Of a DNA stretch of 64,000 bases, positions 11,146 to 52,800 are shown in pieces; within the stretch, counting starts at the first letter, position 1; every line of letters begins with the position of its first letter. A program made the position numbers and the translations under genes. The stretch is from assembly GCA_907163375.1 (NCBI GenBank), contig CAJQUW010005234.1:532501-596500 (forward strand), read 5' to 3'. This DNA comes from Prostheceraeus crozeri. Its lineage: Eukaryota > Platyhelminthes > Polycladida > Euryleptidae. The notes under the pieces were generated by a model. That model did not search any database, was not told the origin of the DNA, and was given only the letters and a program-made list of their open reading frames with translations.

Positions 11146-11339
11146 TAAGGCAGTAGGCGCACGCCCTCGCCAATCTCGGCATTCCCGATAGACATAATGC
11201 TTTGCCTTCTCCAATTTTTGAAATGAAATTCTAAAAATACGCTCGTTTACTTTACTCATTGGCATAATGTGCAATTGTTGATCTAGGTGCGCTACCTAGA
11301 TATAGAAAGGGGAGCACCACAGAATTAGACAGATCTTCT

Positions 11340-11810: not shown

Positions 11811-12358
11811 ATGCGGCGGTTAAATAATCTAATTCTGCGGTAAGTACAGTTCAATTGTCATTGTCTTCGTCGCTTTTCGGGGAGGTCACACCTCAACCAA
11901 CAGGAGATGATAACGTTCAGACGAAGTGTGCGATGAGATGATGAGCGTTTGCCAATGAGTGCAGAGTAATACATCTGACTCGAACAGATTCGATAGGATT
12001 CCATAATTTTATTTTACATGATTGATGTGACGCTATGTTTAGTACTGTAGATGAATTCATAACCACGTCTTTCGTCCGAAGAGAATATTATGATGAACAG
12101 ATGACCGTTGTCACGCAAGGTAGGACAACACCAGATATAAAAATTGAAAGCACTCACAGCAAAAGAAATAAGGAATATACAAGAAACTTTAATGCATCAA
12201 GATTTCAAGCGTTGTGAGTGGCTGACCGGCTGTCAGTAATGAAATGAACTCTTTTGTTAGCCTTAATTGGTTTCTCTTTTCTCGAGAAAATGGATGTTAA
12301 GTATTTTGAAATATATATGGATTTCTATTCCAATATTTTCTATAAAGACATGCATGTA

Positions 12359-25848: not shown

Positions 25849-28800
25849 CTTGAAGGGAATGGAATGAAAGTTGCTTATTGATCACAGAGAGAACTGCATT
25901 ATAAGTCGCACGCTACCAAACCGATGAAATGCTTGCCACCTATATGCTCTATTTCCTTTCGGTAGCGTTATTGTTGCTGTCTGGTAGCGATGCTACCAAA
26001 GCTGCATAGTGTCTACCAGATGCTTCATTTTCTTCTAATCGTATAGATATACATATCAAAAGTTACATGGTGCTTTTTCGCTGCGTTGTAAGTACTATGA
26101 TGCTAACATCTAAAAATCGAAATTGAATTCGATCCCCCCTGCTGATCTCCCAAACTATTGCACCAATTCCGTCATACACACCACACATCAATCGAATAGG
26201 CATTTAAAGGGGATTCAGAAAAACAGTATCAGTTTTATTTTTAAAGTCTTCCCTGGGGTGAAGTGAAGGTCAAAAACCGCCACTTTTGAAAAAATTTCCA
26301 TCAGATCACTATTTGAGATGGAAGATGACAACAAAAACTAATAAACCATACACTAATCGAAAGATCTGGTGAAGGTAGTTAATGAAACGATGGTTATTAA
26401 TCGCTCTGAGATTACATCATTGCATTAGATAAGGTCAAAGATCAAATAATTCAAACTTTTAATTCGACTCAAATATCACTAAAATCGCACATTTTAGTAC
26501 TTAGTTTCTGTAGATCAAGAAACAACCCGATTCGGTGACTTTTATCGAGACAATGAGACAAAAAGCAAAATGATTCTGAAAAATTTCAATGATCACTGAT
26601 CCGATGCAGAACTAATAAGCACAAAAATAACAAAAATTCATATTTAAAATTTGAATTTCAAATTTCAAGCATGCATACAAAAAAATATATAATTTCAAAT
26701 TCAAAGATTTTGCGTTTGTGAATATCTCTATATTAATAGGAAGAATCCTTTATGTAATATCAACTTATTTCATCAAAAATTGATCTGGTAATATACATTA
26801 GAAGTGAATATATACTGATAACAGCCGTAATAATCCAAACATTCAAATTTTAAGTCAAAAGTTGCATGTAGAAATCAAGATACTAGAAATCTGGTGGCCA
26901 TAGTTTGCTTGGTTTAAAAGATATTCAAAAAATTCGCCACCCCCCCCCAATGAGGCGAGGGTAAAAGCATACACTAATTTCCCTAGGAAGTTTGCAGTAG
27001 ATATGCTGAAGTAGTAAGTAAAACTCCACTTCTGGATAGCGCAAGATGGCCGCCGTCGCTGACGTCCCCCCCCCCTCCTGTCAGTCGAGTCGGTCGTGGT
27101 GTGCCGTCGTGTTGCTTCGAGTCTGACGTCCCCCCCCCTCCTGTCAGTCGAGTCGATCGTGGTGTGCCGCCGTTTTGCTTCGTGTCTGACGCCCCCCCCT
27201 CTGGCCGGCCGTCGTAGCGCGAGGTGGTGTGTGATGTGCTCTCCAGGTTGGCGTGGTGTGCCAGCCAGGTTGGGAGGGTGGACTGTCGTAGCGCACTTGA
27301 AAAAATCCTAAGTGTCAGAGTGGCTTTGTATGGGTAAAATTTTGAAAATTTTCCAAAGTGTGTCATTTCGACCTGGGACCTTCACCAAAACATTTTTCAT
27401 CAAATTTCACTGACCCCCCCCCCCGACAGCAATCTTCTAACTTTGGTTCTAGTGGACGGATTTTGTCTTACAGCTACTCGTTTGAAAGAGGAGAAAAAAC
27501 TGCTCGATGACATTTTTTGTTGCGAGTCAATCGGACCAGCCGTTCAAAAGTTAGAGCTGTTACAAGATTTTAGGTCGGAGCTCACCTGAAAAAATCCTAA
27601 GTGTCAGAGTGGCTTTGTATGGACAAAATTTTGAAAATTTTCCAAAGTGTGTCATTTCGACCTGGGACCCTGACCAAAGTTTGTTTCATCAAATTTCACT
27701 GACCCCCCCCTCGGGACAGCAATCTTCTAACTTTGGTTCTAGTGGACGGATTTTGTCTTACAGCTACTCGTTTGAAAGTAGAGAAAAAACTGCTCGATGA
27801 CATTTTTTGTTGCGAGTCAATCGGACCAGCCGTTCAAAAGTTAGAGCTGTTACAAGATTTTAGGTCGGAGCTCACCTGAAAAAATCCTAAGTGTCAGAGT
27901 GGCTTTGTATGGACAAAATTTTGAAAATTTTCCAAAGTGTGTCATTTCGACCTGGGACCTTCACCAAAACATTTTTCATCAAATTTCTCCGAACGAGGGG
28001 GTGTCAGTGAAATTTGATGAAAAATGTTTTGGTAAAGGTCCCAGGTCGAAATTCGGAAGTTTTAAATTTTTCAAAATTTTCACCACACTGGAGCTCTCAC
28101 ACTTAGGAATTTTTTCACTTGTGGCATGTTACATGGACATGTGCTGACGCACCAACTTTCCTTGGTCATATGAGAATGGTTTAGGTGTCATATGATAGAG
28201 AATGATGAGACGAATCGTTTGCAACAAACCGCATGTCGCTACAATGAATACTTTCGGAGATAGAGCCATTTTGAGTTTTCTTCCGAGCATATATAAACCC
28301 CCGACAACGTAAGTCTCATCACTTCATCGAAAGACGAGGTAAGCGACGGTCGTCGCTCTGAGCTCCCGATATCGGGTGTTTCAAAGGACTCTATCTTTTG
28401 AAGTAGGCAAGCTATCTTCTTACTTCAAAGTTTGTGTGATAGAGTTTGATAGTGTCTTTACTACTGATAAAAATTTTTAAAAGTAGTATGAGTAGTAAAA
28501 TGCGGAATTTTTAAAAAATTCTTAATTTTCAGTTTTTTCAAAGTTTTAACATGTAGACTAAGGTTTTCAAGTATGCTGGGTTCAAATCTGCTATCAGATT
28601 TCAAATTTAGCTAAGTCTAAGGCAGCTTTGAGGGGTTAGATCCCAGCTACTGATCACTACCTTTGACTCGGCGTTGCTGTTACCACTTCGGGGCAGTGAC
28701 AATGATGTCTTCAGCTGTAAATAGCGGGTATCGGGGAAGATCTCTCACTTCCCTAGTGATCAGTACAAGGCCTTCGGGCTGTCGACGGGATCGAGTGCCT

Positions 28801-31800
28801 CTCACTACACTCAAATCTATCATTCCTCACTAAGTGTAATGCTTTAGGAATATGACTGTACTACATGATTCCAAACTTATACAAATTTCATTATCTTACA
28901 GTTAACGATAAAATCTCAGGCATGGCAAACGACAAAAACAGAAAATTCTATATCAAAATGTGCACATGTGGGCAAATCAATCGCAGTGCGGACGCCAAGG
29001 CGCATGTCAAGAAGGTGGGCACCGACCACATGATTATCCTGAATAGGGTTGCGTGTGTAAAGTGTAGAGTGTTGAAGGGTGATGAGGATGAGGCGCGATT
29101 TTACAGAGTGCATGCTGACTGTAGTGGAGGTTTGGTGAATGACTTGAGATTCACGCAGTTGATTGTTGAAGAGAGGGAGCGAATGTTGGCGATAGAGCGA
29201 GACGGCAAGGTGGAGAATGTTGTTGAGAATGTTGTTGAGAATGATGAGTTGGCGAGAGCAGTTGCTTCGTTGGAGGCTGAGATTGAGCGAAAGAGAGTGC
29301 TTGAGAGTGATGATGAGGATGATGTGGATTCAGATAGGGAGCGTGTGAGGAAGTTGAGCTCTTCTTCTTCGGAGGTCTCCAACATAGTTTTTGAGGACCC
29401 CCCGCAGAGCTCATCTTCCCCAAAAGTGAAGAGTGGTGGGATTCGTATGCAGTCGGCGAGGTGGTTGAAGGATGAAGAGAAGAAGCATGTATCGCAGCAG
29501 ATGGCGCATGATTTGTTGGTAAATAAGTATGAGAGTTTGAAGAAGGTGAAGGATGAAGTCGTGAAGGAGTTGGATGAGTTGAAAAAGAAGGAACTGAAGT
29601 CGAAGGAGGTAGCGGATGAGAATATTCGAATGAGGCGTAGTGTGACTGATTTGAAGAATAAGACGCGAGAGTTGGAAGAGAAGAATGATGACTGTGAGAA
29701 GAGGGAGAGTGCTGCGGAGAGAAGAATGAGAGATGCAGAAGCGAAGTTTGAGGAGATGATGAAGGAGATGAGTGTGTTGAGAGCGAGGAATGTTGAGTTG
29801 GAGAGGAATATGGCTCGGCGGGGTGATGAGAGACAGGCGTTTGAGAAGTTGGAGCGCATGAGGGATGAGTGGAATCGTGTGAATGAGGATAGGTTGTTTG
29901 AATTTCACATCCCTATTCGGGATAATCATTTGGATGGACAAGTCCTTGTAAATCAAAGTCTCGACGAGTCCATCATATGCTACAACGGCCATCCGACCAA
30001 GAAATGTCTGCATGCCACCCTGAGAATGCGCGGCCATCTCCATAAATACTCTGTTAGAAAGCGCGCGAGACTGCCTAAGGATGGCTAACTTGGTAAGTGA
30101 AAAGCAAATAAGATAGTATATCCTATTCTAATACATATCATTTTCATTGCAGTTCTTTGCCCGCCTTCACCACCCCATCACGTTACTCCCGAGAACGAAC
30201 CACCGGCTCTCTTAAGGGCCACCTAGGGGCAAGACATGATAGAACCTCCACGCGGTTTGCCCTGGGCAGTCTTCGGACTGGCGAATACTATCATTAAGTT
30301 GAATCTGCTATCAGTCAACTTGAACGTCGCGTCGCGTTAGAGGGGTATATAAACCACTGCCTCTCATTTCATTTCATTTCAATCATGCAGACGCCGAACA
30401 GTCAAGTCAGCTCTCCTCGCGGACCGCAGTTAAGGCCGCGAAATTTATTTGAGGAATTTGTTAGGCTAGAGGAGCAAGACAGAGTCCACAGCAATCTTGC
30501 TCGGATTGGCAATCCGATGACAGCAACTGTTGTCAATCCAACAGAATGGCGCTACATTCCATTTTTCAGTCACGTGCCAATTAGCGTGGAAGTCGACAGT
30601 GCTACCAAAGAGAGAGTCAAAGACTCTCTCAGCAGAATCGGTAGGGTGTAACATGACGACTCCCGAGAACGAACCACCGGCTCTCTTAAGGGCCACCTAG
30701 GGGCAAGATTTGATAGAACCTCCTCGCGGTTTGCCCTGGGCAGTCTTCAGACTGGCGAATACTATCATTAAGTTGAATCTGCTATCAGTCAACTTGAACG
30801 TTATGCAGTCGATTGCTATCCCTGAAGCATTCTGATTCGCTGTTGAGCAATTCATTGTTGAAAACACTATATAAGCCAGAAGATTGTAGCGCTTCTCATT
30901 CAATTTTAAGTCACCATGTAAGCAACATCTGCTAGTACCATTCCCGACTTCATCGATGAAGACAACGCCATTCCCAACTTCATCATCCTCGACGAGTGGG
31001 ATGAAGAGGATGAGAAGAAGGGGAAGATCAAGAAGATCATTTGGACGGATGAGGTGTGGACTCCGAATACCACCCGCATCCGAATGGTGCCAGATGCACC
31101 AGCACGACCTAGGCGGTATAGGGTCTATGAGAACCTAACCGTCATACCTATTGACTATTCAAGCCAATAGTCAACTTGTTACTCCCGAGAACGAACCATC
31201 GGCTCTCTTAAGGGCCACCATGGGGCAAGACATGATAGAACCTCCACGCGGTTTGCCCTGGGCAGTCTTCGGACTGGCGAATACTATCATTAAGTTGAAT
31301 CTGCTATCAGTCAACTTGAACGTTGCAAATGAAGTTCGGTGTAATACTTCCTTTCGACGGGCGTTCCTGTAAAGGGCGGCGGTGAAACCCGTAGCTATGT
31401 ATACCGCAAGGGACATTCGGCAATGGTCAATCTTGTTTAACCTCTCTGCGTCATGTTTGCAAGTGATTGCCTCTGTCTCAACGTAGTATGCATTCGCGTC
31501 AGGGCGACATTTAGCCAACTGTCGAAGGTTGCCTAAAACTTTCCATTGCATACGTTATGAGAACCATAAGTTCTACCTGTCTCTATCAATGAGACGAATT
31601 GATGAATGGAATGAAATGGGAGGACACTCACGCGCCACACGCAACATAACACACTTCTCTCTTCCGTAGTCTAACAAGCTCTTTACACATGGATCGCAGT
31701 CGATTGCTATCCCTGTATCAGAAGTGTAAGCTATCTTAATTTTATTTGACACATTTTCATCTACCATTGTCACCCATATGAAATGTTTTAAGATTTACAA

Positions 31801-34800
31801 GTTAGACTAAGCGTGCTGCTATTTCCAAATGAAAAAGTATACATGGTTAAATCATCCACTTAAGCCCATCCGTAGTCTAACAAGCTCTTTACACATGGAT
31901 CGCAGTCGATTGCTATCCCTGTATCAGAAGTGTAAGCCATCTTAATTTTATTTAACACTATTTCATCTACCATCATCGCCCATATGAAATGTTATAAGAT
32001 TTACAAGTTAGACTAAGCGTGCTACTATTTCCAAATGAAAAAGTGTACATGCTTAAATCATCCACTGAAGCTTCATTCAAGTAAGTCAGTATGAAAGCAA
32101 AGATAATACGAAATAAAAATTTATTATGGCATGTACTTCAAAAGGTCTTCATCGTCAATATCGTCCCAGAGTCTGGCTTCACATAGATAACAAAAACAGT
32201 TCACTTGCTTCAATCGTTCTTCTACTGCGAGCCTCACTTTGTCGATGTACTCCCACTCCGCCATAGTTCGTGGCTGTGAGTTAGGGGTGTACCATTCCCA
32301 TAATTGGTGGAGGAATTTGGTGCTGGTGATCTCCATCACATCATCAGCATCGTACTGCAGATACTTCCACCTCACGCCTGTTAAGTCGGGACACTCCTTT
32401 TCACAAACACTCTCTTCGTCGTCCGCTGGTAATGACAACTTTCTGATATTGTCCAGTCGGTACACCTTCTCTACCTTCCCCTTCGTTGGAGCGTTTGGTG
32501 CAACGAGCGCCTTTGGTGTTGAGCATGGAGAAGAGAATTTTGTGTTTGGCGTTGTCGGAGGGCTTGTCATGTTGACTGTGAATAATAATTTTGAAATGTT
32601 TTCTAATTCTTAAGTATCAACAAGCAACCAATCAGAATGAACAGCCAATGAATGATGAATATGAAAGTATATATGTAAAGTGACATTCGTGTCATTTCAC
32701 TCTGTCTTTGTGACATATAAGTGAAGTGTTCTCTGGCGAATTCTATATTTGAGGCGTACAAGTGAACTGCTCTCTCGTGAATTCCAAATTTGAGTGAAGT
32801 CTCTATCTTGTTGAAGTATCAACCTTAAACTTGATTTCGTTGAAATGGTAAGTTGAAAATTTCTTCACTCATCTCCCTCAAACGTGTGGCTAATAGCATC
32901 TCCCTCAATTTCAGGCATCAACTTCATCACCAACGCCCTCCCTTCTCGAGGAAAATTTAGAGTTGTTGAGTCAAAGTAGGTTGTAACAATACACTGAGAC
33001 TTGAACAGAGATGATAGAATGATTTCTCTTTCAGGTGATGTGAGTTCCAGCTCAGGACTCTCGCGACAAGGCAACGAGTGGGAATGTGCCGACTGCGGAC
33101 ATATGTTTACAAGGAAGCACAGTCTCATTCGACACATCAAACAACGTGTGTGTCAACGCAAAGCGGCGTCAATCTCCGGAGGTGAAGTTGATTCTGACGA
33201 TGACATCTCCTTTCCTTGCGATTTGTGCCCTCTTTCTTTTGATAGTCACTTTCATCGATCTTCGCACAGACTTCAACACACGCATGCAAATAATCACTAC
33301 ATCAACGGTACCTCTACCATCTCCCTCATTAATGTTTCATATAATAATTTAGTACGCGACTACTGCATGGAGTCCAATACTCAAATAGTAGATTTTCCTG
33401 AGTGGCTCCTTCAAAATTCTAACATTATCGAAGCGCTCTTCAACAATTTAGACAATTTTAGAATGAAGGCGCTCATCTACCTTAAACTAAAATATATTAA
33501 GATAGATTTTCAAACGGGTCAAGTGACGGAGAGAATACAGTTTCATGTTCCTTCCTCTTCCGCAACCGAAGTTGTAGACTGCGAGTCTTGGCTAAATTTT
33601 CACATTCAATGTTTAAAATCAAATGTAGATAAATTCAATCAACGCGACAGCGCTCTCATTTTTGATGGTGTGGACTCAGCCATATTCAAAATTTCCCTAT
33701 TAGAAAGTCATGCAGCTCGAGGCACATTTAAACTACCAAAAACGTTGTATAATAAGAAAGCTGTCATCAATGTCGATTGTAAATCACAGTGTTTCAAATA
33801 TGCAGTCCTATCCATCCTTCACTATAATGATATCAACGCGAATCGAAATCATACCTATAGCTATAGACAGTGGGAGGATGAACTAGACTTTGAAGGTTGT
33901 GATAGTAACAACATGAAAATCAAAGATGTAGAAACGTTCGAAAAACATAATAAGATTAAAATTGTCGTTCACGTGTGGGAGAAGGGGTTGAAGGGTGCCC
34001 GCTATTATTCACGTTCAACTTGTTATGAACGTGTAGTCAACCTCTTATTAGTAAAACAAGATGATAGCGAGGAATGGCACTACTGTGGTATTCCCAAAAT
34101 CTCTCGCTTGTACACTCACTTGGGGCACTCTAAAAGAGGTGAACATTTTGTATGCGACCGCTGCATCCGCTCCTTTTGGAGTAAAGATAAATTTGAAACT
34201 CACTATGAATGGTGCAAGCGAGGTAAATTACAAATGGAACGCATGCCCAAAAATAAAATATTTTCACATAGGGATAATAGTGACGAATTAAGTCCCCTGC
34301 GTGTCATTTACGCAGACATAGAATGCTACATTGATGATATCATCCACAAGCCAGCAGCCATATCCTGCTATGAAGTATGGCATGACCACTTTAGGAATAG
34401 ACAAAACAAAATGCATACTTGGCAAGGTGAAGATTGCATTTCAAAATTTCTAGAATTTCTCGATAAAGCTGCTAAATTTCAACAATCATATGATTCCCAA
34501 TTGCAGCGTAAGTCACTACATATGTCAGATGAAGACAAACAGAAATTTGAAAGTTGCACATCGTGCCCCAAATGTCATAAAACGTTTGATGACGACAAAA
34601 TTAAGAAAGTGCGTGATCATGATCACATCACTGGTAAATTTAGAAACGCACACTGCTCCAAATGTAACTTTTCACTTAGGTTGAGACGTCGTGTACTACC
34701 CGACATTTTTCATAACTTTAAGGGCTATGACAGTCATATGCTCATAAAAGGAGGGTTGAGCCAGATGAAATCGTGGCAGTTTAATGTAATAGCGCAAACG

Positions 34801-37800
34801 AGAGAAAAATTCATGGCAATGACAGCAAAAGTACCAGTAGATAAAACTAAAGAAAATAAGACAGTCTTCTTCGAAATAAAATTTTTAGATTCATTCCAAT
34901 TCATGTCAGCGTCACTAGCTTCTCTCGTTCGTAATCTCAAGTTTCTTCCCCATAGTCAAACTTTGAAGAAACACTATCCAAACTTAACGGATGAAATAAT
35001 CACTCGCAAAGGAGTCTTTCCCTATGCGTATTTTACCTCAATGTCTAAACTAAATGAAACAACCCTTCCTTCCATTGACAAATTCCAAAACGATTTGACG
35101 GGTGAAGATTGTCCAGTAGAGGACTATGAACATGCTCAAGAGGCATGGTTAAAATTTGATTGTAAAACGTTTGGAGATTATAAGATCGCTTACTTATAAT
35201 TAGATGTCATTTTGCTGGCTGATGTCTTTCAGGAATTTCGACAAGTGGCATTAGAAGAAGACAAATTAGATCCTGTCCACTTTGTCAGTCTACCAGCCAT
35301 GTCCTTTAAATCAGCCTTTAAAATGACTGGTGAGACCATCCATCTCTTACAAGACCCGGAGATGTATAACATATTTGAGCGCGGAATACGCGGTGGTCTC
35401 ACATTTGTGAATAAACATCACATAAAATCTAAAACAGTAGGTAATGATCATATCCATCTAAAGTACTATGACCAAAATAATTTATATGGCAGTTCACTGT
35501 CTAAACCACTACCTCACTCCGAGTTTAGTTGGTTAAATCAAGATGAGCTTGCGTATTACTCCAACCCTTCAAACATTCTGAAGATTCCAGATGAAGGTGA
35601 TTGGGGATATTATTTTGAAGTGGATTTGATTTATCCAAATAGTATTAAAAATAAAACTGCTGATTTCCCACTCGCACCTGAATCTGGTGAAGTGACTGAA
35701 GATATGTTTTCACCATTCATGTAACAATTTCATAATAATTTAACAGAGTGTGGACAGCCAAGGTACAAACCATGCCGCAAACTTTTGCTCACCCAATATG
35801 ATAAGAAAAATTAACTCGTACACTTCTGCATACTAAAATTCTATTTAGAAATGGGCATGCTTCTAAAGTCAGTTCACCGCATTATCAAATTTAGACAGAA
35901 AACCTTCCTCAAACCCTACATAGATAGTAACAGTCAAAAACGTGCACTCGCCCAAAATAATTTTGAAAAGGATTTTTATAAATATAAGAATAACAGTCTT
36001 TTCGGAAAGATCATGGAAGATGTTAGAAAACGTATGAACTACAAACTAGTCGTTGATGAACAAAAATATCACAAATTGACCTCATCACCTCTTTTCATTG
36101 ATAGAGACATCATCGATGAGGATCTTGTAGGTGTTAAAATGATAAAATCAGAAGTTGAGTTGTGCAAACCCATCTATATTGGGCAAGCCGTTTTAGATTA
36201 TTCCAAGCTTGAAATGTATCAACTCTTCTACAAAATATTAAAACCATGCCCTCTCGTAAAAGAGGTTCGCTTGCTGGGTGGTGATACAGATAGTTTCTTT
36301 TTAGGAATTACCACTCAAAAAACTTTAAATTTTAATGAAGTAGGTAAGTCATTAGAAAAATATTTCGATACATCTAACTACAATCCCACTCATCCACTCT
36401 ATTCCATACAGAATAAAGCCAAACTTGGTTGTTTTAAGGATGAAACAGCAGGAAAGGAAATAGATAAAATGATTCTCCTCCGTCCTAAAATGTATTCCAT
36501 GAAATTAAAAGAATGTGCAGATAGTATTAAGCGTGCTAAAGGTATATCAAAATCCATTGTTCACAAAATGAAACATCGGTCCTATAAGAAGGCCTATAAA
36601 AATAAAACTATAACGTTTGTCAATATGACAATCTTAAAATCTCAAGTTCATACTGTGAAAACGCACACGTTCAAGAAACGAGCGCTTTCAGCATGGGAGG
36701 ATAAGAGGTGTTGGATAGGACATAACACATCTCTTCCACATGGACATCCTGACACAAACATACCTCCACCCAAAAGAATAAAACTCACGCTACCACATTC
36801 AGGAGATGTATTGACATAATCAACTTTAACTCAGTATTTTGATGTTGCTTTTTGTAGATATACATGGTTGTTTTATGTATCGCATGAGATCGTTTCTTCC
36901 TTGTGAATATATGCCTACAGTCAGCCCATTCCCCCTTTATCTGTGAAAAGACTTTTTCATACACATATTTTTATTTCAATAAACATATCACAATGACTTC
37001 ACTTTGTTTTCCGAAACACTAAAGTTACGAGGGATTTAGTATCTTTCACATGGATGCACTCTTGTAAACCATTGGTAATTTTGATAGCAATAGAGGGTAT
37101 AGTTTGTTTGACGACGGGATGATAGAAAATAGATTCAAACATCTTCTCGACTATTCCATATGAAGCGTCTTTATCATGAATGAAATCACGTAAAATGTAT
37201 TCTTTTTTCTCACCAACAGAAATAGGAAGAATCAAATCACTTTGAATGTAAAGGTGCTGTTCATGTTTATCAAGTGTCATTGGTGTTTCTATACCAATCG
37301 TATGCGCAGCAGTAAACACAGTTTGTAGCATTGAAAAACCAAAGAGTTTTTTTCAAATTTTTACTCAATTGACATTGAATGTCATCACCCAGTTTCAGAA
37401 CAACGCGTTGATTTTTAATTGAAAACGAAATGTGGTGTGTCTTTACATCATATTTACTTTTCATCACATGCTTCAACTTCTGTTGTATATAAGGATTTAC
37501 TACATGAATGAAGCTTTCAACTGTATGATATAGACGCGGCATTATATTGATAGCAACTTTAGATTCTTCATAAGACTGGTAAATTTTCTTGATGCGATCA
37601 CCATAGATGTCCACCCACCATTCATCATTAACTGAATCAGCTTTAGTGTGATATTCATGAGAAGCATACACCAGACCGCTTCCAATAATAGGGGTTAGAT
37701 GTCTTACAAAATGGCGCAAGGTTGGAGAGAAATAAACTGTAAGTTTGTCATTATATTTCTGAATAACCAACTTATTTTTGTCCGCCATAATTTTCTCTCC

Positions 37801-40800
37801 ATACTTCTTACCCACAGTCTCATTCCATCGTTTTACTAACTCAATAAGTGATAAAGGCTGAACACCACGCTTTTTCAAAATGATGCGTTCTTCGCATTCT
37901 ACAACATCTTCATCAAATATTTTAAATTTATAATGAAATTTGTTAATTCGATTTGAATAAACTTTTTTAACATTTGCAGTAGCAATTGACGTTAGATGTA
38001 GCCCATGACCAAAACCGAGATGTGGATAGAATTCATTATCCAACCTCAGTGTAAGACCTTTAGTAAAAGAATGAAAGCGAAGGAACTGTCTCCCACTCCA
38101 ATGATAGATAGTAAACTCATAAACTTTCTGATCCTTATTCTTCATGATGGAAGTATTACCACTGTTGAATGCCTTAATAATTTTCTCATTCCCAAATGGA
38201 CCATACTAATCTGATTTTATCTGAATACATTCATAGTTCCACTTTCCGTCTGACGTTAAATTGTATGGGAACTGGAATGCATTATTCATCGTTATTCCAT
38301 CATGGGTGCAAGGAGTCAATATCATTTCTTCCAAATCATTCACATTCTGAATATTGCTATCATAGCAAATACTAGAAACGCCAACCTCCCATTCATCTTC
38401 TAAATGTAGTGGGCGATTTAATTCTACTCGATAGTCTGATGGTTTATTTTTGGGAAATTTATTCATAGAAGCATTACTGGGCAAGTAGATTAGAAACGAG
38501 TCCTTATTTTCACTTTCCATATTATTCACATTGGAAAAATATATTAGCATACTTTTGCATTAACTCTTCATTCGGAAATGGAGTGTGATACTTGTCACAG
38601 CATCTTTATGAAAAGGAATCAACGCACCAGCATCGTCATAAATTGCAATATCAATTTGTGGGATGTAGTTTGACTTCAGCTTTGTATAATGCACTTTCTT
38701 GAAAGTATGCTCAAATAAAATACTGCAGCTTTTTGGCTGGTATGGTATCATTGCTAGCAATGGAGCTTCAACATCTTCCACACGTACATCTTCACCAATA
38801 TTGGAATATATCTGAAAATAGTTAATACGACGCGATAGTGACATGTCTGCGCTAGCTTTGGTTACAGTACCACTTTTAAAGATATTTTGATCAAAACCCA
38901 AAATGTCCATTAGAGTTTTATCCATAATTAGTTCAATACCTTTTCCACTTATAGTGAGAGACAAAACACCTTCTTTTTCAGAAAATGAAATTTGTTGGTC
39001 ATTAATCACTTCATTTAAATAATCTACAACCAATTTAACTGAAGTAATAATGCGAGGCATCAACACTCTTGTTTCATGTAAGATACCACCTAAAGGCTCT
39101 ACACACTTTCTGTATAAAGATACGGTCCATTCTGTGTCAAATTGATTTGACCTTTCACATGGTAAATGTTGCATATCAAATTTTCCATGAGCAGCTGCAG
39201 AACGATGTCGTAAGAACTGATGAAAATCTTTTGAACAAACTAATACTAGATCATCATCATTTAATTTACTTATTGCAATATGATTAGATGATTTGATATA
39301 AGTCAATGTTGCCACTTGTTTACCATCAACTCGAAGGAGATAATCAAATTTCTTCAATAATGTTTCAGGAGTCATGTTTGTCTTTCTTGGCTTAATCACA
39401 ATCTTCTTCACCAACGTCTTCTCATTTTTTGGAATAAGATCTACATAATAAGCTTTCTCTCGATATATTAACTGTTTATGACCACTTGGGTGGTAACTAA
39501 CGTTATAATTATCATAGCTTGTTAAGGCGCTAGCGAGGTAACCTAAATCATTTCTTAAACTTGGACTTAAACCAACAATCCAATCTTTCTCAACTACATG
39601 ATGTACATAATTATGATCATCATTGTGCGGAGTAAATTGGACAATATGTTTACACGCTTTATTCAAGAAATCATATATAAACTTTTTACATGATAAGAGA
39701 TCTTTCTTTGACCACTATGGAATGTATACTCGGCAGCCCTTTTCACATTGGTAAGCAGCTGTGCGTCTCATATTAATAGTCATCACCTCATGATCAAAAG
39801 TATAGACACAGTTGCTATGAACAAGTTGAGTGACACCCACTTCCCACTTTCCATTTAGCTGTTGTGCATGATCAATGGGAGTAGAAAAGAGTGCGGCTCG
39901 ATTACTAGCAAATTTATTTGCAGCCGCATTGCTAAGCAAAATATGATAAAACGACATTTTGATATTGCTGATCTGCGACTTTGCATAACATCATGAAGAC
40001 TTGGATTTTGGACTCTCTACAATATATCAGAGTTGATCGTAATAGAAACGTACATTTCAAAAATTCTCATGGTCATACATCAAGAGGTATTACATTAACA
40101 TGGCGACAATTTGTCAACCTCAATGATATCATGAGGGATTTGGAATATTTTGAAACATTAAGATTCATCTCCTTGGGTGATCAAGTTTGGCTTCAACATT
40201 ACAGAAATGAAATTCAAATCTGCCATTCTCATTCCGCAAACTGTTTCTCATTTCGCAAATACAATTGGGAGAAGTATAGAAGATACATACATGGCTCCAT
40301 CATGACATTTATTCGTCGTGAGTTCATCGCCCTAGTATGCAAATCTTAATCAGACATGACTACCACGCACCATGAGTTGGAAATTAGATTCCCTACAACG
40401 TATTGAAACGGATCATGATCGAAACGTCTATTTCAAAGATTCAACTGGAAATGTGAGAAGAGAGTTTGCTTTATCTCATCGTCATTTTTAATCTCTACAT
40501 CATATCATGAAGGATTTGAAATACTTCTATATGAAAAGACATTCACGTATTGGAAATCGCATCTGGTTGCGCGTCAACAAACGGCGAATTCAACTCTATC
40601 ATTCCAAACTCCATACTAACTTCACATTTCATCAAGGTAGTTGGGAAAAGTATAAAAGGAAGGTACATCGCTCAATTTACTCATTTTTTCATCATGAAGC
40701 GCCATCGCTACACCATCGTCAACATTCTACGTCGCTTCAGACTCTACACCAAAATCGATCTCACAACATTACACCAACACCTTCCAAACAGCAAGTATTA

Positions 40801-43800
40801 CCCGGGCCGTCCTCAAATGTTAGTGGTGAAGATGAACAATTCACGGAATCTTCAACTCTTCCCAAATGGGACTGTACAGATTCTCGGCGCCCTTTCTCAT
40901 TCATCGGCGCAGTCAATGCGCTTAGAGCTACAGAGACTAATACGTCGGATATGGAAGAGGGAGAGGTGTGTGATGTCGAATCTGACTGTGGACAATATGG
41001 TGATCTCTACTCAATTGAGTGAAAGTGTATCATTTTTGAAGATTCGTACCAGCAGTTACAATTTGTGTTATGAACCCGAACTTTTTCCTGCAGCTCTCAT
41101 TAGTTGTTGGTTACCTGTGCATGTTGCAATCTTTCATAATAGTAAAGTGATTATTACTGGACTAAAATCTCATGTACAAGCAAATGTGATCCTAGACTAT
41201 CTCATCGAGTATGTACGTACCCAGCGCATTGTAAAATAAAAAACAATTTTTCCAACATGATGTTTTTATTTCAAATCATGATAGAACTTACAAATCATTT
41301 TTTCATTAGAGGAAGGATTACATGAAAAGTTTTGAATAACAGATACAAATCGAGATACATGTAAACGTTTTAAGATGAAGTACAGTACAAAAGCACCACA
41401 CGTTGATGAAAGTGGATGTTGTAGTATGCGTTCATTTCGCTGATATTGACGCGTATGTTTTCTCAACCACTGCTGTGTTGGTATATTTGGAGGTTGAGCA
41501 AGAGAGTCAAATAGTTCACCACGTCGGTCTTCTCCAATAAAGATCGCTTTCCAATGCTCACCACCTAAATTCTGCGAATGAGTGTTTAGCACAATAAAGA
41601 TGGGATAGTGATTTACTGCAGGTGGTAAGGTATCGAGCGAATAGACATTATCGAAAGCTTTCAACGTCGCTTCGTCTGCATTACGCTGTACTTTAGTTTT
41701 AATATCGTCAGCAGTCAACCAACTCATTAACGATTATACTGAAGAATCACGTCACGATACTTTGTAATTTCAATATTTGAATCGAAGACTGCATAAATTA
41801 ATACATTGATCGTCTCAGGTAGTGTTCTTTTGAACGTCAAATCCAAACGAATATTATGAGGCACGTTCGCTTGACGATAGGGTGCACTAATATCGCTGTC
41901 AGCAGTCAAATCAAATGCATAAATAGTATATCCACTCTTAAACTCTTTCATAGTCAGTCCGTTGGTGTCATCCGTATTGTAAAAGCCAAAGACATCCATA
42001 AAATCAACATAACTGCGCATAAATTTATCCGAAGCAAAATCTGGTTTGTAGGGTGGACCAGGATGACTCACACCATTTACACGTAAAGCAATTTCACTTA
42101 ACTGATTGTGTTTAAAATTGAAAGGATTCTTCTTTATATTACCATTAAATGCATCATTTTCAACCATTGCCACCATGAGGAGCTTCGGTGCTTCCGATGG
42201 AAAGAGGCCATCTTTCATGAAACTCTTTTGATCTTTCGGAATTGAAAAGGTGAGAAGCTTTGTATGCTGAATGGGGTAAATGGCATTTTGGCGGTTAAGA
42301 CCTTCAGCATGCCCTCTAATGACACTTGGATTCGGTACTACTCGACAAATGTAAAGTGCAATATCTTCCACATGAATTCTAAAATTTTCAACTTTAGCAA
42401 ATGCATTCAGCGCAAATTCAGGCTTATTCAATGTCAGCTTGAGTCGCATGCTGGTATTACAGAGTAAAAACTTTGACTGTCTAAAGAAGTCTAAATTCAG
42501 CGGACCATATAGCTGACATACTTTACTATCTTTAATCATAGCAGATCGCTTTACAAAGCCACTGTTTGTTTCAGCATCAAATTTTCCTGCTTCATCTCTG
42601 TACCATCCCATGGCTTCCATATGACTTTTTTGTGCTGCTGGATGAAACTGTGATACATGATTGAAATATGATTTATAGGGATAATCGCTTTGACCACCTT
42701 CCACCTGCTGCTCTCTAATCGTTAGAGAAACATCGCGAAGTAATGTAGTCAATGGTAAACTGTTCAGTCCAACTTTATGTGTATCGTCAATAGCATTTCC
42801 ATCTGCTTGCTGAATTCTAAACCTCAAATCAACCATCGCATAACTCAAATCCATGTAGTCATCACTACCACCAGGAATAACAAATTCAATGGGGCCAGCA
42901 TTCTCAGCTGCTCGAGGATGATAATCTACAATACTTGAACTAAGAATATCTGTCTGTATGGCTTGTTGATCAAACAAACAAAACCCGGAAGTTTTACACT
43001 CCATGATTAGAAGTTATGGCAGCGTCGTCGTTTAGCGCCTGATGAATGATTAGAGCCTCTGCGACGTTTGCGTGAATGCCTTTTGACTGAAGATCGCACC
43101 TTACCAGCTCCGCGAAGTTTCCTTCTTCCTTTATTCATTCGTTTAGGCGATTTCTTTCCTTGAGTAACACCAGCAAAGGTCTGCTTCAATGTTTTTAAAC
43201 CGCGTTCCTTCCCACGATTCAACAAACTGCTCTTAAAACTTCTACCTCTGGAAAGATCACTAGCAACATCACCAGCAAAGCCAACGGCATTACTTAAAAC
43301 ATTTCGTTTTAAAGATCTTCCGACATTGGATATGAGAGGTGCTACAACAGATTTCAGTGCACCAAGTATGCTACCTCCACGTTGGCGGCGAGCGCCGCTG
43401 TAAATTTGTCCTCCACCACTTACATAGGAGGGTCGTGAATAAAATGAGGCAGTTGGATTCATAGCTCAAACCCTAAACATTGTTAGTTACAACTTTGCAT
43501 GAATCACTGTCGATCACTTAGATGAAAGATGTCGGCAGGACGCATCCAAGAGTTCATACTTGAAGGATAACCAGTCCATTTAACAAGACACCATTCTTCA
43601 CCTTGTCGTTTTTTACACCGAATGATTTTCTCTACCAAATATGTTTCACTTTCAGTGACTACCTCAATCTCATCGCGGTAAAAGCTACCCTCAATTTCTT
43701 CATTATCGTAATCTTTCAACTTGTAGGTGGTGGGAGAGTCTTTTTGATCAATCCTTGATACTGTAAATACCTCCTCTGTCCAATTCGGAAGGTACCCTTT

Positions 43801-46800
43801 AGCAAAAACACTCTTCACTTTTGAGATACGAACTTTATCACCAATTTTCACATCACTTTTCACATGAGTGCGTTTACGTTGGAATGATTCGCTCACTTTA
43901 TCTACATTGTCAGCATTTACATCTACTGGTCTGAGTCCAATAGAACGATGGATAGAGTGATTGTAGGCATGGAGTGTATCTTGTAGAACATTTGTCCAAT
44001 TTTGTGTCAGATTGGCAGTAAAATGTCGCCACAAGCGATTTTTTAATGTGCGATTAAAACGTTCAACGAGTGCAGCTTTATAGGCACTCTTTACACTGAA
44101 CAACTCAATGTCATGCCTCTCAAATAATCTTCTCACATGCTGATTTTCAAACTCTTTTCCTTGATCACTCTGAATTCTTTTTGGAATGCGACCTTCTCGA
44201 AAAATTGTTTGGAATGCTTTTGCTACTCCTTTCCCTTCTTTAGTTTTTAAAGGTTGAGCCCACGCATAACGCGAGAAAATATCAATGACGGTTAAAATAA
44301 AATTATTGCCCGATTTATGTTTTGAAATGGAGGCAACATCACACAAATCTGCTTGCCACTGTTCATCGATGTCATGAACAATATAAGGGCGGGTGCGGTA
44401 CTTCTTTTTCGCTTGTTTGTGGAGTGTATAGGTAGCCTGACCCTTTAACCATCGTTTCACTTGTGATTGTGGAAGACCACTCGCTTTTGATAATTTCTTG
44501 ATAGATGCAAATCCTGCCGGATGTTTTACATCATAATAGATTGACTTCAAACGTTCAGTCGATGACGACTGACTCTTTTTCCTCCTTCTCATCTTTTTAT
44601 TTTCTTGCCTTTCTACATTTACAACAACTGCAGCATTTAGCTTTAGCGGTTTTGCGATCGTGTTCACATTGCTTAGGGGTTTCATTGTGAGAGCTGGCGC
44701 AGCAAGTACAAGTGACAACGACATTCACCTCTGGTGGCTCATTACATGGCAAGCAACACATCTGCTTCATATTAATAGTCTGAGAACATGTATTTCTTGG
44801 GAGGAGCTGTTTTACGTTTTTCTTTTACTAGTTTTAGTGGTGATGTAGATCTACGTCGAGTTCTTCCTCTTGTTTGCTTAGTGAGTGTGGGAGGGGATGT
44901 AGCAGGTGACGTCTTAAACCAATTTGTTGGCATTTTCATCGCCTGAAGCATTGGAGCAGTAGCCACTGTTGAATCAAGTTCTTTCAATGTCTCATTATTC
45001 AAAGCAAATTTTGGCACATTATACTTTTTCAATAGTTTAAGAAAGTATGACCAACCAAGTGGAACATAGCCCTGACGGCGCTTTCTATGTGTCGCATACT
45101 GAATCAAGTCTTCATAACGTGAAGCATCAATCACTCTATTTTCATCTGTAATGATTTCTCCTCTATCATTTACATTGAGATGGGGTTCAATACTGTTGAA
45201 AAGAGATATGGCATGTGCGCGAGATGCTAAAGGTGTAGCAGTCGATACAGAGTCACGCATCTTATTCTTCAAATTTTTTAGTTGCTCAACAGTTTCCGAT
45301 TGTAATAATACAGCACGATGTGGATCTTTGATGTGAACATTTTGCTGATAATCTATTTCTTTCCTATACATTTGATTTGCAAGAGGTTGCTTTACTTGCT
45401 GCATGGCAGTCAATTGTACATATTCATCCTGAGGAATAACAATCATGCGAGAATAAGAACTCATAGTTTGTAGATAATCATGGGAGTTTTCAAAATATCA
45501 CTTCGAAATCTAAATTCTTCCGAACACTCTTGCGTAAAGTCAATGAATAAGTAACCGTGTGGTTTTTCAGTAGCTGCTTGAAAAATTTCAATTAAGGCTT
45601 TTGATCCTCTGGGTGCAACTTGTCGCGCTAAAATTTCAAATTGACTTTTATCTCGCGGATTCTTGAAAATAGCATAATAGTGTGTATTCAGGTTTCGTGT
45701 ACGAGCTTTTTTTCCATCAGGAAACAAATTTTGTGTGATATAGATGATAAAGCACCTTTTATGATGTGCTGCGGGAGTGAACATATCTGTAACATCTTTT
45801 GAATTCTTACTTTCTTTTGATAAATCATCCAATACAACAACATCATTAGACTGAAGTTTATCCACTGCAATAATTCCTTCATGTCGAATAAAGTTGCGAC
45901 TTTGCAATTCCTGAAACAGCGACGGTTGATAAATACCATAACACCAAATCACTCGATTGATAGGTTCCTTAAACAACTCCCTTCTTTTATCCAATAAATT
46001 CAGCGTGAAAACAGTTTTACCTGCATGAGATGGACCTGATACAGTCAGAACTTTATCACATTGAAGTCTGAAATCCATTATAATACTTTGAGATTTAACA
46101 TTTGCATAATTAACGTTTAGAGCCAAAGATATTACCCAATACGTTGCCCACGATAGGAGCTAGCATCGGTAGTAACGCTGGAAGGAAACCGCCCTTTTGT
46201 GTTAGAGTTTCCCTCTTTCTTTGAAGGGTGACTTTAGGATTGGAGATGAAACGCAATTTCGTAGCATATCGCTTAAGTAACTTTCGTTGTTTTGGTGCTA
46301 ATTTCTTCGTCTTCAACTTTCTCACATGAGAAATAATTTCACGAATGAATTTATCGTTAGCATGTCGTATAGCATTGTATCGCTGATTTGCTTTCATTCG
46401 TCGGAGAGCTTGAATGGCTGAAGAAAACTTTGAAGACTTTTGACTTTTACGTTTCGTTATTTTACGTTTCGCCATTTTCCGTGTTAGTCTTTGCTAAAAC
46501 CTATCTTTACCACATTTGCATAGGTACTAACTATTGCGGCATAAGTGACACTCGAAATGAGCAATATCACAGTGGTTACATTTGCAAAGTTGAATGCAAT
46601 TACGTATGAAACAGCGTTGACAAAAAGCATGCTTACATCTCTTGAAGATGCGCTTTTCATTTCCATCCTTTCGCTTACATACATCGCAACACATAGTTTC
46701 ACCGTTACTGATGTCTATAGCAAGTCTTTTTGAAGATATGAATTTGCTAGCCTTTTCTAAATAATAGACGCATGTACAGAAGGGATATACTTCGAGAGTG

Positions 46801-49800
46801 AGCAGACATAGCTCGAAAACCAGTTGTGCTACAATCAAGTACCACTGCATTTTCAATTTTTCTTTATAGAAAGTTGAATGTGAATATCTGAAATCGCTTC
46901 AATCACTAGACTGCTGCCATGATGGTTAAATGCGTTAAGACGTTCAGCAATTTTTATCATATGTCTTTTAAAAAATTCTTCGGGGTGATCTACCACTTCC
47001 ATTGAATAAGAAGCAAAATGGAAAGAGCGACTTTCCACCTCTTCCTTTCCAAAATGACTAAACTTAATTTATTTTCGCAACTAATCGCGCCATGACAATG
47101 CTATCAGAGAATGTATTCATTAACTCTAGAAATAGAGTGCTAGCATCATCGACCACTGCTTCGATGTCGGTCTCATCTTTATGAAAATTTATCACATAAT
47201 CTTGAACAGCTCCTTTTAAACTTTGCCTATGAAAATGTAATGTTCCGCAGTCGTTTGAGAAAGACATGATCGCCCTTTATCTAACCCATCCATTGCATGA
47301 AAACAACAACTCTTCTCATAGTAACATTTATTAAATAACGGTAACAAGCATGCATTATAAATCAATGGTTTGTAACAGATAAAATAGATACAGCTGGGAA
47401 CTATCATACAGCGAGCAATGATGACCATACAGGACTTTGGCAGTGTTGAGGTAAGGAGGAAAGAAGCATTGGTTATGAACGTAGCTACTACAACGAACAG
47501 ACAAAAATGGAACAGACAAATCCTTAAAACGTTTCGTGACTTCATGATAATGTTGATTCACTCTACTATCCCAAGGCGGGAGCAAAATATCATCAATGAT
47601 TAGATTGGGAAATACTTTCCTCTCCTTACCAGGATTACTACAAAAGATGCGTATAACATTGAAAGCAGCTAACCATCGTTTAAAGTCAATAAGAAGAGCA
47701 CTGTCACAAGAAAAGCCATAGTCTTGCAAATATTTCAGATTAAGTCCATGAATGTGTTTTCTCGCCCATTGATCAACATTGGGATCGCAGTTGGCATGTT
47801 GATGATAGACACTAACAATCTGATATGTCCAATTGTTCATAGCAATAGCACTGAGCTCCTGTACAGGTTCACCCTCACAATCCATAAAAATGATGATAGA
47901 AGCCTAAAACAGAAATTTACACATCTAAGGAAACGTTCTATAACATATTACAAAATGAAGAATTACATCGATGCTTTTCACGACAAAATACACAAATGAT
48001 ATGATGGCAACGAAGAAGTAAAATGTATCTAATAAGACCACGTCTACGACACTCAAAGCACATAAGCGAATTGTCATAGAGTAGAGTTAGGAAAGGACTA
48101 GTAATTCTCCTTCTTTGATTTGCGTTTTGATGCAGCATTCTTCTCCGACTTGCGCTTCGTACCACTGCTGTTAAGGATTTGATCAATTATGTCATCCACG
48201 TTGGGTGGTTTTGGAATATATAGGATGGACTCCATATGCATGGAGAGAGAGACTATTTTATTATCCTTGTGTCGACCATAATATAGCCCATTCACTTTGA
48301 AAAGGATATCCCAAGTACCTTCTCCGAGCTCGTCGCATGTGATGGATGTTGAATGATCTCCCTCCTTCTTATAGTAAGTGCACCAATGTGATACCGGTAG
48401 GCAAATGTGATTACCATCCCAAATCTTTCTATAGGGAGTATCCTTGTCATCTCTCGCCTTCCACTCTTGAGCAAGAGGAGTAGGAATGTCCATATTTAAT
48501 GTCACGTACTCCTCAATAATATCAAGTTGGTGGCGAATGTACGGACTCACGGGGATCAGTATGTAGTCCCCATACTGATTGTGCATTATCTTGACATCCG
48601 TGGAACGGAGCATTCCCGTTTGGAGTACTACGCCATGATCGTCATAACGCAAGACTTGTTTAAATTTACGCTGTAGCGGTGTAGGATTATGTACCTTGGT
48701 TGTTTCTTCCACTGGCCTCAGTTGTAGATGATCTGATCGTAGCGAACCTTGTAACGTTTGACCGCCATTTTGTCCTACTAGTGCAGCAGATGGAGTAGAT
48801 GCCTGAAAATGAAAAAGATTGTATTAAGTTTGCGTTCAAGGGAGGGGAGGGAAGAAAGTAGCGACTTACCATTTTAGTTGGATAATAGAATAGGGAACTA
48901 GAGAGAGAGAGAGAAAATGTGCGTCCGTCACTCGTGCGATTCAACGATGGAATGATTCTCACTGTGGAAGGCTCGCTATTTATATAGAAATGCTTGATTC
49001 TCATTGGATTATGATCCTCATTGGACAATAACATCAAGCTGATTCCAAATCTGGCCTCCGTTTACCAATCCGAGCCTTCGTTCGCCCGCTGGGGCTGTTT
49101 CTTGGGAAATTCTAACTCTGTCGTTTTTTCACCAATCTCCCAAATCTTGAATGGCGTCTCACATCTAAACGAAGACAGATATGAACAAGCCGTTTCTTTC
49201 ACTGAATTTGTCTCAGTCTTAGCTTTCAAACGAGCTATTGCACGACTTTCTACGATCTCTAGAACCAAAGTTGGAAGATCGGTGCCGAGGGGAGACGTCA
49301 GGGAAACTTTTTCTCTCCGATTGCGTTCAGATTCACCATACCGATGCAGAATTTCATGCTGAATCCGAATCTGACCTCCGTTTTCCCATCCCATGCCTCG
49401 TTTTGGCGCTACAGCCCAAAACGTCCAAAATTCTAACTCTGTCGTTTTTCGACAATCTCCCAAAATCTTAAATGGCGCCTCACATCTAAACGAAGACAGA
49501 TATCAACAAGCCGTTTCTTTCAGTGACTTTGTCTTACTCTTAGCTTTCAAACGAGCTATTGCACGACAAAATCCGTCCACTGGAAGTCAAGATCGAAGCT
49601 AGCTCTCCCGAGGGGGGGGTCAGTGAAATTTGATGAAACAAACTTTGGTCAGGGTCCCAGGTCGAAATGACACACTTTGGAAAATTTTCAAAATTTTGTC
49701 CATACAAAGTCACTCTGACCCTTAGGATTTTTTCAGGTGAGCTCCGACCTAAAATCTTGTAACAGCTCTAACTTTTGAACGGCTGGTCCGATTGACTCGC

Positions 49801-52800
49801 AACAAAAAATGTCATCGAGCAGTTTTTTCTCCTCTTTCAAACGAGTAGCTGTAAGACAAAATCCGTCCACTAGAACCAAAGTTAGAAGATTGCTGTCGGG
49901 GGGGGGGGTCAGTGAAATTTGATGAAAAATGTTTTGGTGAAGGTCCCAGGTCGAAATGACACACTTTGGAAAATTTTCAAAATTTTACCCATACAAAGCC
50001 ACTCTGACACTTAGGATTTTTTCAGGTGAGCTACGACAGTCCACCCTCCCAACCTGGCCGGCACACCACGCCAACCTGGCCGGCACACCACGCCAACCTG
50101 GAGAGCACATCACACACCACCTCGCGCTACGACGGCCGGCCAGAGGGGGGGCGTCAGACACGAAGCAACACGGCGGCACACCACGACCGACTCGACTGAC
50201 AGGAGGGGGGGGACGTCAGACTCGAAGCAACACGACGGCACACCACGACCGACTAGACTGACAGGAGGGGGGGACGTCAGCGACGGCGGCCATCTTGCGC
50301 TATCCAGAAGTGGAGTTTTACTTACTACTTGCTGATAAACGATTTGTTGAATGATGAATGTAGCAGCTTCTCCCACCAAAACTTAAATGATATAGCGAAG
50401 CTGGCGACGACTTACTGGAAAGCTTTTTCTTCTTTTCAGTCAGTCAGTTAACGTTAATAAACTATCGGGAAGTTAGCCGGTACATGGAAGTTAATAAGTA
50501 GTGGAGTTAGTAAAGTACACGGCGTCATCTTCACATTATGACTGACAAAGTAAAGGATTATAGTGTTTGTGATGAGTGCACAATTCACATCAGAACCAGT
50601 AGCGCTACAGAAATTTATAGAAGATGAGCGCACTTCTCACAGCGTATTACATATTCACCAACGTATTCCACAACATTCCCTAACCTCAAAAAATTCTTCA
50701 TACACGGTTTTTGTGAATTTTAAAAAGAATTATGCGCGAAAATTTCGATTGCTCACAGTGAAAACAACGAATCCAACTTGAAAACGAGAATAACAAATAT
50801 TGCGAAATATAAATAAGCGCTTGATGACGAAAGCTAACTAGGAAAATGTTTTGTAGCTGTCACTTTAATATATTTGCCGTCCAGCTATCAGTGCGATATT
50901 TTGGGGACATTCGGGCGCCAATTGCATATGCACAATCCAGTGCTACAAATGAATATGAGCTACTTCTTCATCCCGTGCTCCGCGATCAATATTGCTAAAT
51001 AATTTCTATAAAGTGGACGATAAAAATTTCATTCGAAAAACAGAAACTTAGTTTAATAGAATGACATTGACCAGGACGCGATATAATTACCTGATCTAAA
51101 TTCACTGATGCTGCAAGTTTCATGACTTCCAGTCAGCCGCCGCCTGTTATCTTCACCACAAAGCGGGTCATAAGCCTCAATATGCTCCTGATGCTTGTAA
51201 CTCATTCGGTCAATTGCTCGTTCAATCTCTGCAATGCCTCCTGGTTGACGCATAGCATCAGTAGAGAAGTTGCAATGAGCACCGGAACCGTTCCAATCAC
51301 CTGGTATGGGTTTTGGATCAAAGGAAATGTCGTAACCGAAATCCTCAGCAACTCGACAAAGAATGAAGCGGGACATCCACATGTGATCCCCTATATCGAT
51401 GCCTTCGCATGGACCAACTTGATATTCCCACTGAAAGGAATAGAAATTAGATATGAAATATGAAAGCTTTGAGACAATAATAGTGAACGTGTGTGAAGCT
51501 GGTGGAGCCACCCAGGGAAAATATTATTTATTACAACGAAATTCTATTCGAAACGACTTATACTTCATTAATTTCAGCCTCCTTATCATGATTTGGGGCT
51601 CAGATTCCACAAAGTCGCAGCCGTGTTTGAGAAAGTCTAGTTGACAGTTAAAAGTGGCTCCGTTGTGAAGTCAGAGGAACCAACTTCTTAGTTTCGCTGA
51701 TAGGCGTAGTAAATCAATTTTATTTTGTCACTACCTGATCCAATTAGTTGTGCTGATCACAAATGCATTCTTCATTTTCCACGACAATGCGGCTAAAAGC
51801 GGTAGTATCGCAACTTGCTCATGTACGTGTGTGAAGGTAGCGGAACTACCCAACGGAACCATTTTTATTCGAAGCAACTTTACTTTATCAATTTCTGCCT
51901 TCTGATCATAAATATGTGCTCAGATTTTACAAATTCGTTGTCGTTATTGAGAAATTCAAGTTTAAAGATGGTTTTCCGGTGGGTGGTTCAACTGACTTCT
52001 CACACGTTAAAAGTGAGTCATCTTTAAACCATTGATATGCTGTATTAGAACCGCTCAAATCTCCTTGTGACGATTTGAGGCCACAGGCACGCAGAGTATG
52101 TATAAGCCAAAAAGGCAAATAGAATTCTGCGCATCCTTTCAATTATAATTGGCACATAGAATAAGCCATATGTCATACGCCGCTGATTATGCTGGCACAT
52201 AGAAAATGCCCTTAGCAATTACTTACATTGTGGCTTGTGCTTTATGATAGATCGTGATGGGAAATGGGGAAGATGACTTAAGGCGCACGACTTATGGCTC
52301 GGTTATGAATATATGCCTTGTGGCAGGTAGCTGCCCATTTACAGCAGCCATCGAAATGAAAAATATTCAAGATGCTGTTTCAAATTCCTTCCAAGTTCGC
52401 TGTTTCGAACACTACGCATGCTATGGTAATAACTATGCTGTAGTACGCCTAATAAGTAGTATTGCCACCGAAATACAACGAAGAAATTCAAAGGACAAGT
52501 GGCTATTCAAAATGCACGCGTAAGATGCCGTAGACAAGTTGCAGTGCATGAAGAATCAGTTAATGTGCTTCATAGTGAGCTTTCCAAATAGACTTTCATG
52601 TGAGTAGATGAAACTACTGTGACGCTTCGATTGGACATCGTCATTTGACTTCGTCGACGGTTTCAGTTTTCAGACGTCATATATTTCTAAAGCGCGTCAC
52701 TACTGAATAGAAGCATTACTTAGTAAAAGTAAGTAAGGGGATGAGGGCTGACCATGAAGGATTATCGTATGAGGCGAAGCTAAAAGATCAAAAGAAAGGA

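Follow-up and report, generated by a model that had tools for sequence, protein, structure and literature searches.

The genome of the polyclad flatworm Prostheceraeus crozeri harbours, in the 64,000-nt stretch analysed here (contig CAJQUW010005234.1, positions 532,501 to 596,500; hereafter the window), an integrated element of which the gene at 40694–41239 encodes a two-repeat TATA-binding protein (TBP) of a Polinton/Maverick lineage. In archaea and eukaryotes alike, TBP is the general factor that binds promoters, and no earlier report of such a protein in a Polinton was found in the open-access literature searched.

A TATA-binding protein carried by a Polinton

The product of this intronless open reading frame (ORF) matched the Pfam TBP family (PF00352) in two stretches (E 1.8e-20; 73 bits for a cut-off of 22.9) and the TBPs of the PDB, both as a single sequence (E 1e-12) and through a family profile (E 9.4e-25) that aligned in a single stretch to residues 2–176 of the M. 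jannaschii TBP. Its structure model (predicted local distance difference test, pLDDT, 95.6) displayed the saddle fold, and the significant PDB fold matches were all TBPs (44/44). The signature YEPELFP, the Asn residues N10 and N101 and the Phe residues F56, F131 and F147 are present, the fourth kinking-Phe position being occupied by P40. A first-pass annotation, made on the letters alone, had proposed this ORF with its 181 residues and both TBP repeats, together with YEPELFP, both Asn and three of the four Phe; these motifs were all found in the sequence, and Pfam, PDB profile and fold bore out the rest, with the profile search and the structure prediction placing both halves in the TBP family.

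The surrounding element is a Polinton/Maverick, as identified by its terminal inverted repeats (TIRs), its 6-bp duplication and its rve integrase (Table 1). The TIRs enclose 23.3 kb (27010–50329), and the element ends, identical at 40/40 nt compared, start with AGTAGT, a sequence that vertebrate Mavericks show at their ends more often than any other (PMC8097293). The AGTAGT TIRs, the 6-bp duplication, the integrase and the order of the protease candidate beside the capsid candidate resemble other animal Polintons, to which the TBP and the PUR-like genes found here come as extras; TATA, TBP and transcription factors are unmentioned in the vertebrate Maverick article (PMC8097293). Within the element, the TBP gene sits between ORFs first read as pentons and the protease.

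Relatives, phylogeny and selection

A first protein search recovered 61 relatives, every one of which had a precomputed Pfam TBP domain; in the alignment they were 31–78% identical to the window TBP (P0001). A profile search returned 1145 proteins at E ≤ 1e-3, among which cellular TBPs may figure; the best 120 of these 1145 matches scored at least 219 bits, whereas the top cellular PDB chain reached 90 bits with the same profile, and were therefore considered of viral type. Both searches together named at least 138 relatives. One TBP relative (P0002, 81%) and one relative of the neighbouring PUR1 gene (P0064, 76%) agree in the length of their longest contig, 1771, suggesting that TBP and PUR are probably neighbours in that source too.

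Two trees were built, both leaving out the TBPs of giant viruses and mirusviruses. In the first (41 selected viral-type rows and 5 cellular TBPs), all cellular rows were set apart by a 100/100 branch, and in the second (15 viral-type and 7 cellular rows, including the host TBP and the host TBP-like factor, the latter flagged as a long branch) viral and cellular rows were again split at 100/100. The host TBP was recovered as two exons on C9306 (72% and 86% to a microsporidian query) and shares 25.7% identity with P0001; a second host TBP-type gene, on C3829 (39%), resembles TLF/TRF2 by eye.

Searching the 2.05-Gb host genome with P0001 gave 11,874 first-look candidates, of which the 150 scored were all 99–100% identical and stop-free, and the protease query gave 12,637, of which 150 were scored; these candidates are unconfirmed copies, hinting at thousands of TBP-bearing copies in the host genome. 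As a side observation, three Polinton queries each gave 11,000–12,600 candidate places.

Other elements also carry related TBP genes, as the first-pass annotation had suggested searching for. The P0010 query yielded 150 scored loci at 47–50% identity to P0010, among which L065 bears a TBP 45% identical to P0001 (2.8e-46) and represents a second lineage in the same genome, immediately preceded by a PUR-like stretch (29%, 6e-5) and with a polymerase end in its vicinity; a stretch beside this TBP is 67% identical (7e-61) to the window ORF 35851–36819. Two further loci that the host-TBP search returned, L073 and L074, belong to nearer lineages and show the gene order PUR1, PUR2, TBP.

Comparison of the TBP frame between the window, L073 and L074 gave nonsynonymous-to-synonymous ratios (pN/pS) of 0.14–0.34. 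Among copies, the ratio was 0.75 for all distinct TBP changes and 0.97 for private ones (81 nonsynonymous, 24 synonymous), and changes found in at least three copies (5 nonsynonymous, 9 synonymous) gave 0.16, or 0.13 without residue 83, at which the window differs from 27/27 other copies. Of 30 loci picked by protease score and not by TBP, 27 had a full-length TBP gene, which was broken in 8 of them; PUR1 was broken in 8/28 and the capsid gene in 16/30. From the low pN/pS between lineages and the neutral decay within the genome, we infer that TBP was under purifying selection while the virus evolved and is not maintained by the host. The earlier claim that TBP stays undamaged next to broken neighbours was thus contradicted by the broken copies and the neutral private changes, and the intact TBP of the window copy is due to chance. 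A host TBP that was retrocopied recently and picked up by the transposon, an origin that the absence of introns would fit, has next to no chance of being the source, given the low identity to the host protein, the separate 100/100 clade, the purifying selection between lineages and the second lineage in the same genome: the split host TBP, the 25.7% identity and the 100/100 separation rule it out, as does the phylogeny with host TBP and TBP-like factor that had been proposed as a check.

Promoters, DNA contacts and putative role

We lean slightly towards reading the TBP as an initiation factor supplied by the virus: it would bend DNA at the viral TATA/initiator (Inr) promoters, bring in host TFIIB and RNA polymerase II (Pol II), and probably favour the provirus promoters. 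The host machinery would first read the viral TATA promoters, and the viral TBP would next bind them, its own included, through its retained C-terminal half. Its E127/E129 stirrup would hold host TFIIB, a host partner being proposed because 0/19 scanned element proteins matched an RNA polymerase family, with several short ORFs outside the scan. The replacements in the N-terminal half (P for F, L for T, and M, H or L for V) would shift site choice or release the protein from host control of TBP.

The TBP gene bears a predicted TATA/Inr core promoter that is conserved in both lineages and is new. Its box, TATAAAAGG, is found at −43 in the window, in L073 and L074 and in the lineage-2 loci L065, L066, L069 and L071; among the seven lineage-2 loci, L067 and L070 are without the exact TATAAAAGG and L068 has it at an altered distance. 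The box is retained in 26/29 and 29/30 near-identical copies, 18 nt (TGGGAAAAGTATAAAAGG) are identical between the window and L065, and TCATTT occurs in L065 at the same place as in the window, its A lying 32 nt from the first T of the TATA box in both. Among relatives with a long upstream extension, 13/39 show Ile-Lys at 14–13 residues upstream of the start, a pair that is compatible with TATAAA but no proof of it.

Using TATA[AT]AA[AG] as site pattern and YYANWYY 30–34 nt downstream as Inr-like pattern, we found nine TATA sites in the element, five of them with an Inr (28290+, 30346+, 30868+, 40651+ and 48986−), a set that is likewise new; the other four sites fall within or next to the polymerase and penton-like regions. 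One of 22 TATA sites in the flanks has an Inr, and with a background of 0.108 the chance of at least 5/9 is 0.0013. The boxes annotated beforehand at 28290, 30346 and 30868 do exist, and the fourth, placed at 48975, has its first T at 48986 on the minus strand. Three tandem-like direct repeats of 149 nt, about 0.5 kb apart, were also observed at 30182–31326, with two TATA/Inr promoters just after the first two.

Residue counts were taken from the alignment of 41 viral-type rows and are given with yeast TBP numbers and contact roles. The F99 position is Pro in 41/41 rows and the other three kinking Phe are kept in 41/41; the family thus has three of the four intercalating Phe of canonical cellular TBPs, and the protein was therefore not filed as one. 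The T124 position is Leu in 38 rows, Met in 2 and Phe in 1, V71 is replaced by Met, His or Leu in all 38 rows covering it, L114 by Gln in 38/41, and L205 by Ala, Thr or Ser in 41/41. By contrast, N69 is kept in all 35 rows covering it, F116 in 41/41, and N159, V161, E188, F190, P191, F207 and T215 of the C-terminal repeat in 41/41; the E186 position is E in 39/41 and D in 2/41, the acidic TFIIB-facing stirrup being thus kept. The roles of Phe, Glu and TFIIB in TBP are also described in PMC12529657.

Several points weigh against an initiation factor acting at TATA boxes. TATAWAW is not enriched in the element (19 in 23.3 kb; the left flank, 27 kb long, has 76 and the right flank, of 13.7 kb, has 16). 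TATAWA lies within 120 nt upstream of 3/20 starts (32570 at −103, TBP at −43 and 46850 at −18), and most structural genes are without a TATA box over that distance. The N-terminal repeat is altered at F99, V71 and T124, which makes TATA binding itself less than certain, and the TBP copies decay neutrally within the genome. Conservation of the TATA box of the TBP gene may also be partly coding, because the box overlaps PUR2 and encodes its Tyr-Lys-Arg.

Alternatively, the TBP might serve as a late-promoter switch, reading another element such as ATGCAAA before the TATA-less structural genes, a role that we consider unlikely. Upstream of starts, ATGCAAA is the most frequent 7-mer (5/8 occurrences at most 80 nt before 19 starts, 6/8 when one further penton-like start is counted), the N-terminal DNA contacts are altered family-wide, and herpesvirus TBP mimics, which read TATT, offer a parallel. 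However, the motif was picked after all 7-mers had been viewed, and its distance to the starts, which are those of several structural genes and of PUR2, varies between 10 and 46 nt (one of these starts has its ATG at 39957). The occurrence preceding PUR2 is also coding and is absent in L074, none precedes any start in the 7-kb L072 (a lineage-2 locus without structural gene match), and both central Asn are retained, a retention that disfavours G-C at the site centre. ATGCAAA occurs at 38554–38560, 39980–39986, 43494–43500, 46101–46107 and 46515–46521 on the minus strand and at 40337–40343 on the plus strand, and is a possible candidate for a late-promoter element or a POU-type octamer. A two-stage programme, in which host-type TATA/Inr promoters would come first and the TBP, together with a PUR partner that has its acidic tail coded within the TBP gene in a different frame, would then redirect host Pol II to ATGCAAA late promoters, appears just as unlikely.

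A little less credible still is host shut-off, with the TBP as a decoy for host TFIIB or other partners that would depress host transcription, and promoter choice as a secondary matter: the TFIIB-facing EPEL stretch is retained and half of the DNA contacts are altered, but the C-terminal DNA contacts, needless for a decoy, are all retained, and the gene has its own promoter, of a strong type common to other element genes. Prospects are poorer again for a structural role in bending DNA during replication or packaging at the TIRs, and not in transcription. The adjoining PUR/Whirly-like genes, predicted single-strand binders, would fit replication as well as transcription, whereas the TFIIB-facing residues kept in 39–41/41 rows and the TATA/Inr promoters of the same element argue against such a role.

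Viral TBPs with which the proposed initiation factor can be compared have already been described in giant viruses, in mirusviruses and, as mimics, in herpesviruses. Those of giant viruses (Heterosigma akashiwo virus and B263R of African swine fever virus, ASFV), the top named BFVD matches, share the virus-encoded TBP fold, with 8–20% sequence identity to the Polinton TBP in structural matches. Several giant viruses, such as Megavirus, also encode RNA polymerase or TFIIB (PMC11464507); neither was seen in the element scan reported above. TBPs with three Phe are found in apicomplexans and in ASFV B263R (PMC5825884). Mirusviruses have TBP in common with the Polinton, in 59% of their genomes (PMC10132985), and are set apart by their description as very large plankton viruses. 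ORF24 of Kaposi's sarcoma-associated herpesvirus is TBP-like and uses host Pol II, with no viral RNA polymerase (PMC12529657); all four Phe are present in it and the acidic residues for TFIIB are gone, the opposite of the Polinton TBP, with three Phe and the acidic residues kept. The sole match in a phage collection (24% identity, E 0.02) was the TBP of Haloarcula virus HJTV-2, a virus of an archaeal host that is not closely related to giant viruses.

If true, a small Polinton with its own TBP would represent a minimal capture of Pol II by a single factor, differing from the herpesvirus mimic by the retention of TFIIB-facing residues, and Polintons would gain a gene-expression programme testable one promoter at a time. 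The family-wide F-to-P and T-to-L changes would then constitute a natural experiment in DNA reading by TBP, for which the numerous copies within one host would provide natural variants.

Neighbouring genes and other features

Two PUR/Whirly-like genes lie next to TBP (Table 1), the second of which, also new, overlaps it by 329 nt in a different frame. This PUR2-tail frame has one internal stop in the window copy and is open throughout in 32/52 covered copies, a count that includes 13/26 from the sample not picked by TBP. Its tail contains a stretch R-[RK]-P-F-S-F-x-x-A-V-x-x-L-R common to two lineages and has an acidic-rich end in the window lineage.

Table 1. Coordinates of the Polinton, its genes and its TATA/Inr sites in the window
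Feature	Position	Strand	Remarks
Target-site duplication TGCTGA, left	27004..27009	.	6 bp
Left TIR	27010..27778	+	begins AGTAGTAAGT
TATA	28290..28297	+	TATATAAA, Inr 31 nt downstream
TATA	30346..30353	+	TATATAAA, Inr 30 nt downstream
TATA	30868..30875	+	TATATAAG, Inr 34 nt downstream
Broken DNA polymerase region, several ORFs	33019..36819	+	putative, from motifs
PUR1	39993..40349	+	118 aa; two repeats of beta-beta-beta-beta-alpha type; predicted to bind single-stranded nucleic acid
PUR2-tail gene	40372..41022	+	PUR/Whirly-like domain and 108-codon tail in the +2 frame of TBP
TATA box of TBP gene	40651..40659	+	TATAAAAGG, 43 nt before ATG; also Tyr-Lys-Arg codons of PUR2
Inr-like TCATTTT	40681..40687	+	A at 40683, 32 nt after first T of TATA
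TBP gene	40694..41239	+	181 aa, ORF free of stops
Protease candidate, convergent neighbour of TBP	41266..41727	-	Peptidase_C48 E 0.0011, 19.3 bits, cut-off 20.7 missed
Major capsid protein candidate	41727..43004	-	DJR-like_dom E 0.033, below cut-off
Integrase with chromodomain	43504..44724	-	rve 3.1e-11, Chromo 1.7e-6, both above cut-off
Packaging ATPase candidate	45461..46078	-	Pox_A32 E 0.011, below cut-off
TATA	48979..48986	-	TATATAAA, Inr 33 nt downstream
Right TIR	49544..50329	-	inverted-repeat match
Target-site duplication TGCTGA, right	50330..50335	.	6 bp

The region 33019–36819 is presumably a broken DNA polymerase, judged by its motifs, and possibly of the protein-primed type B expected of Polintons; two scanned pieces of it gave no Pfam polymerase match, and the penton-like ORFs gave no Pfam match among those scanned. 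Repeats of 289 nt were observed at 27285–28000, inside the left TIR.

Elsewhere in the genome, L072 (C3873:111401-118400) contains a relative of the window ORF 47355–47885 (40%, 2.6e-34) and, in more than one copy, a relative of ORF 48098–48613 (25%, 1.5e-11), which L065 has too (22%, 2e-8). The loci L033 (C5587:282500-292400) and L031 and L032 (C9113:45000-64800) are made of Polinton pieces that are rearranged and in part duplicated and inverted, and in which several TBP genes occur within a few kb of one another. Outside the element, the window holds two alike host-type secreted ORFs, at 3896–4582 (−) and 21235–21888 (+), the former with C-type lectin and PAN domain matches.

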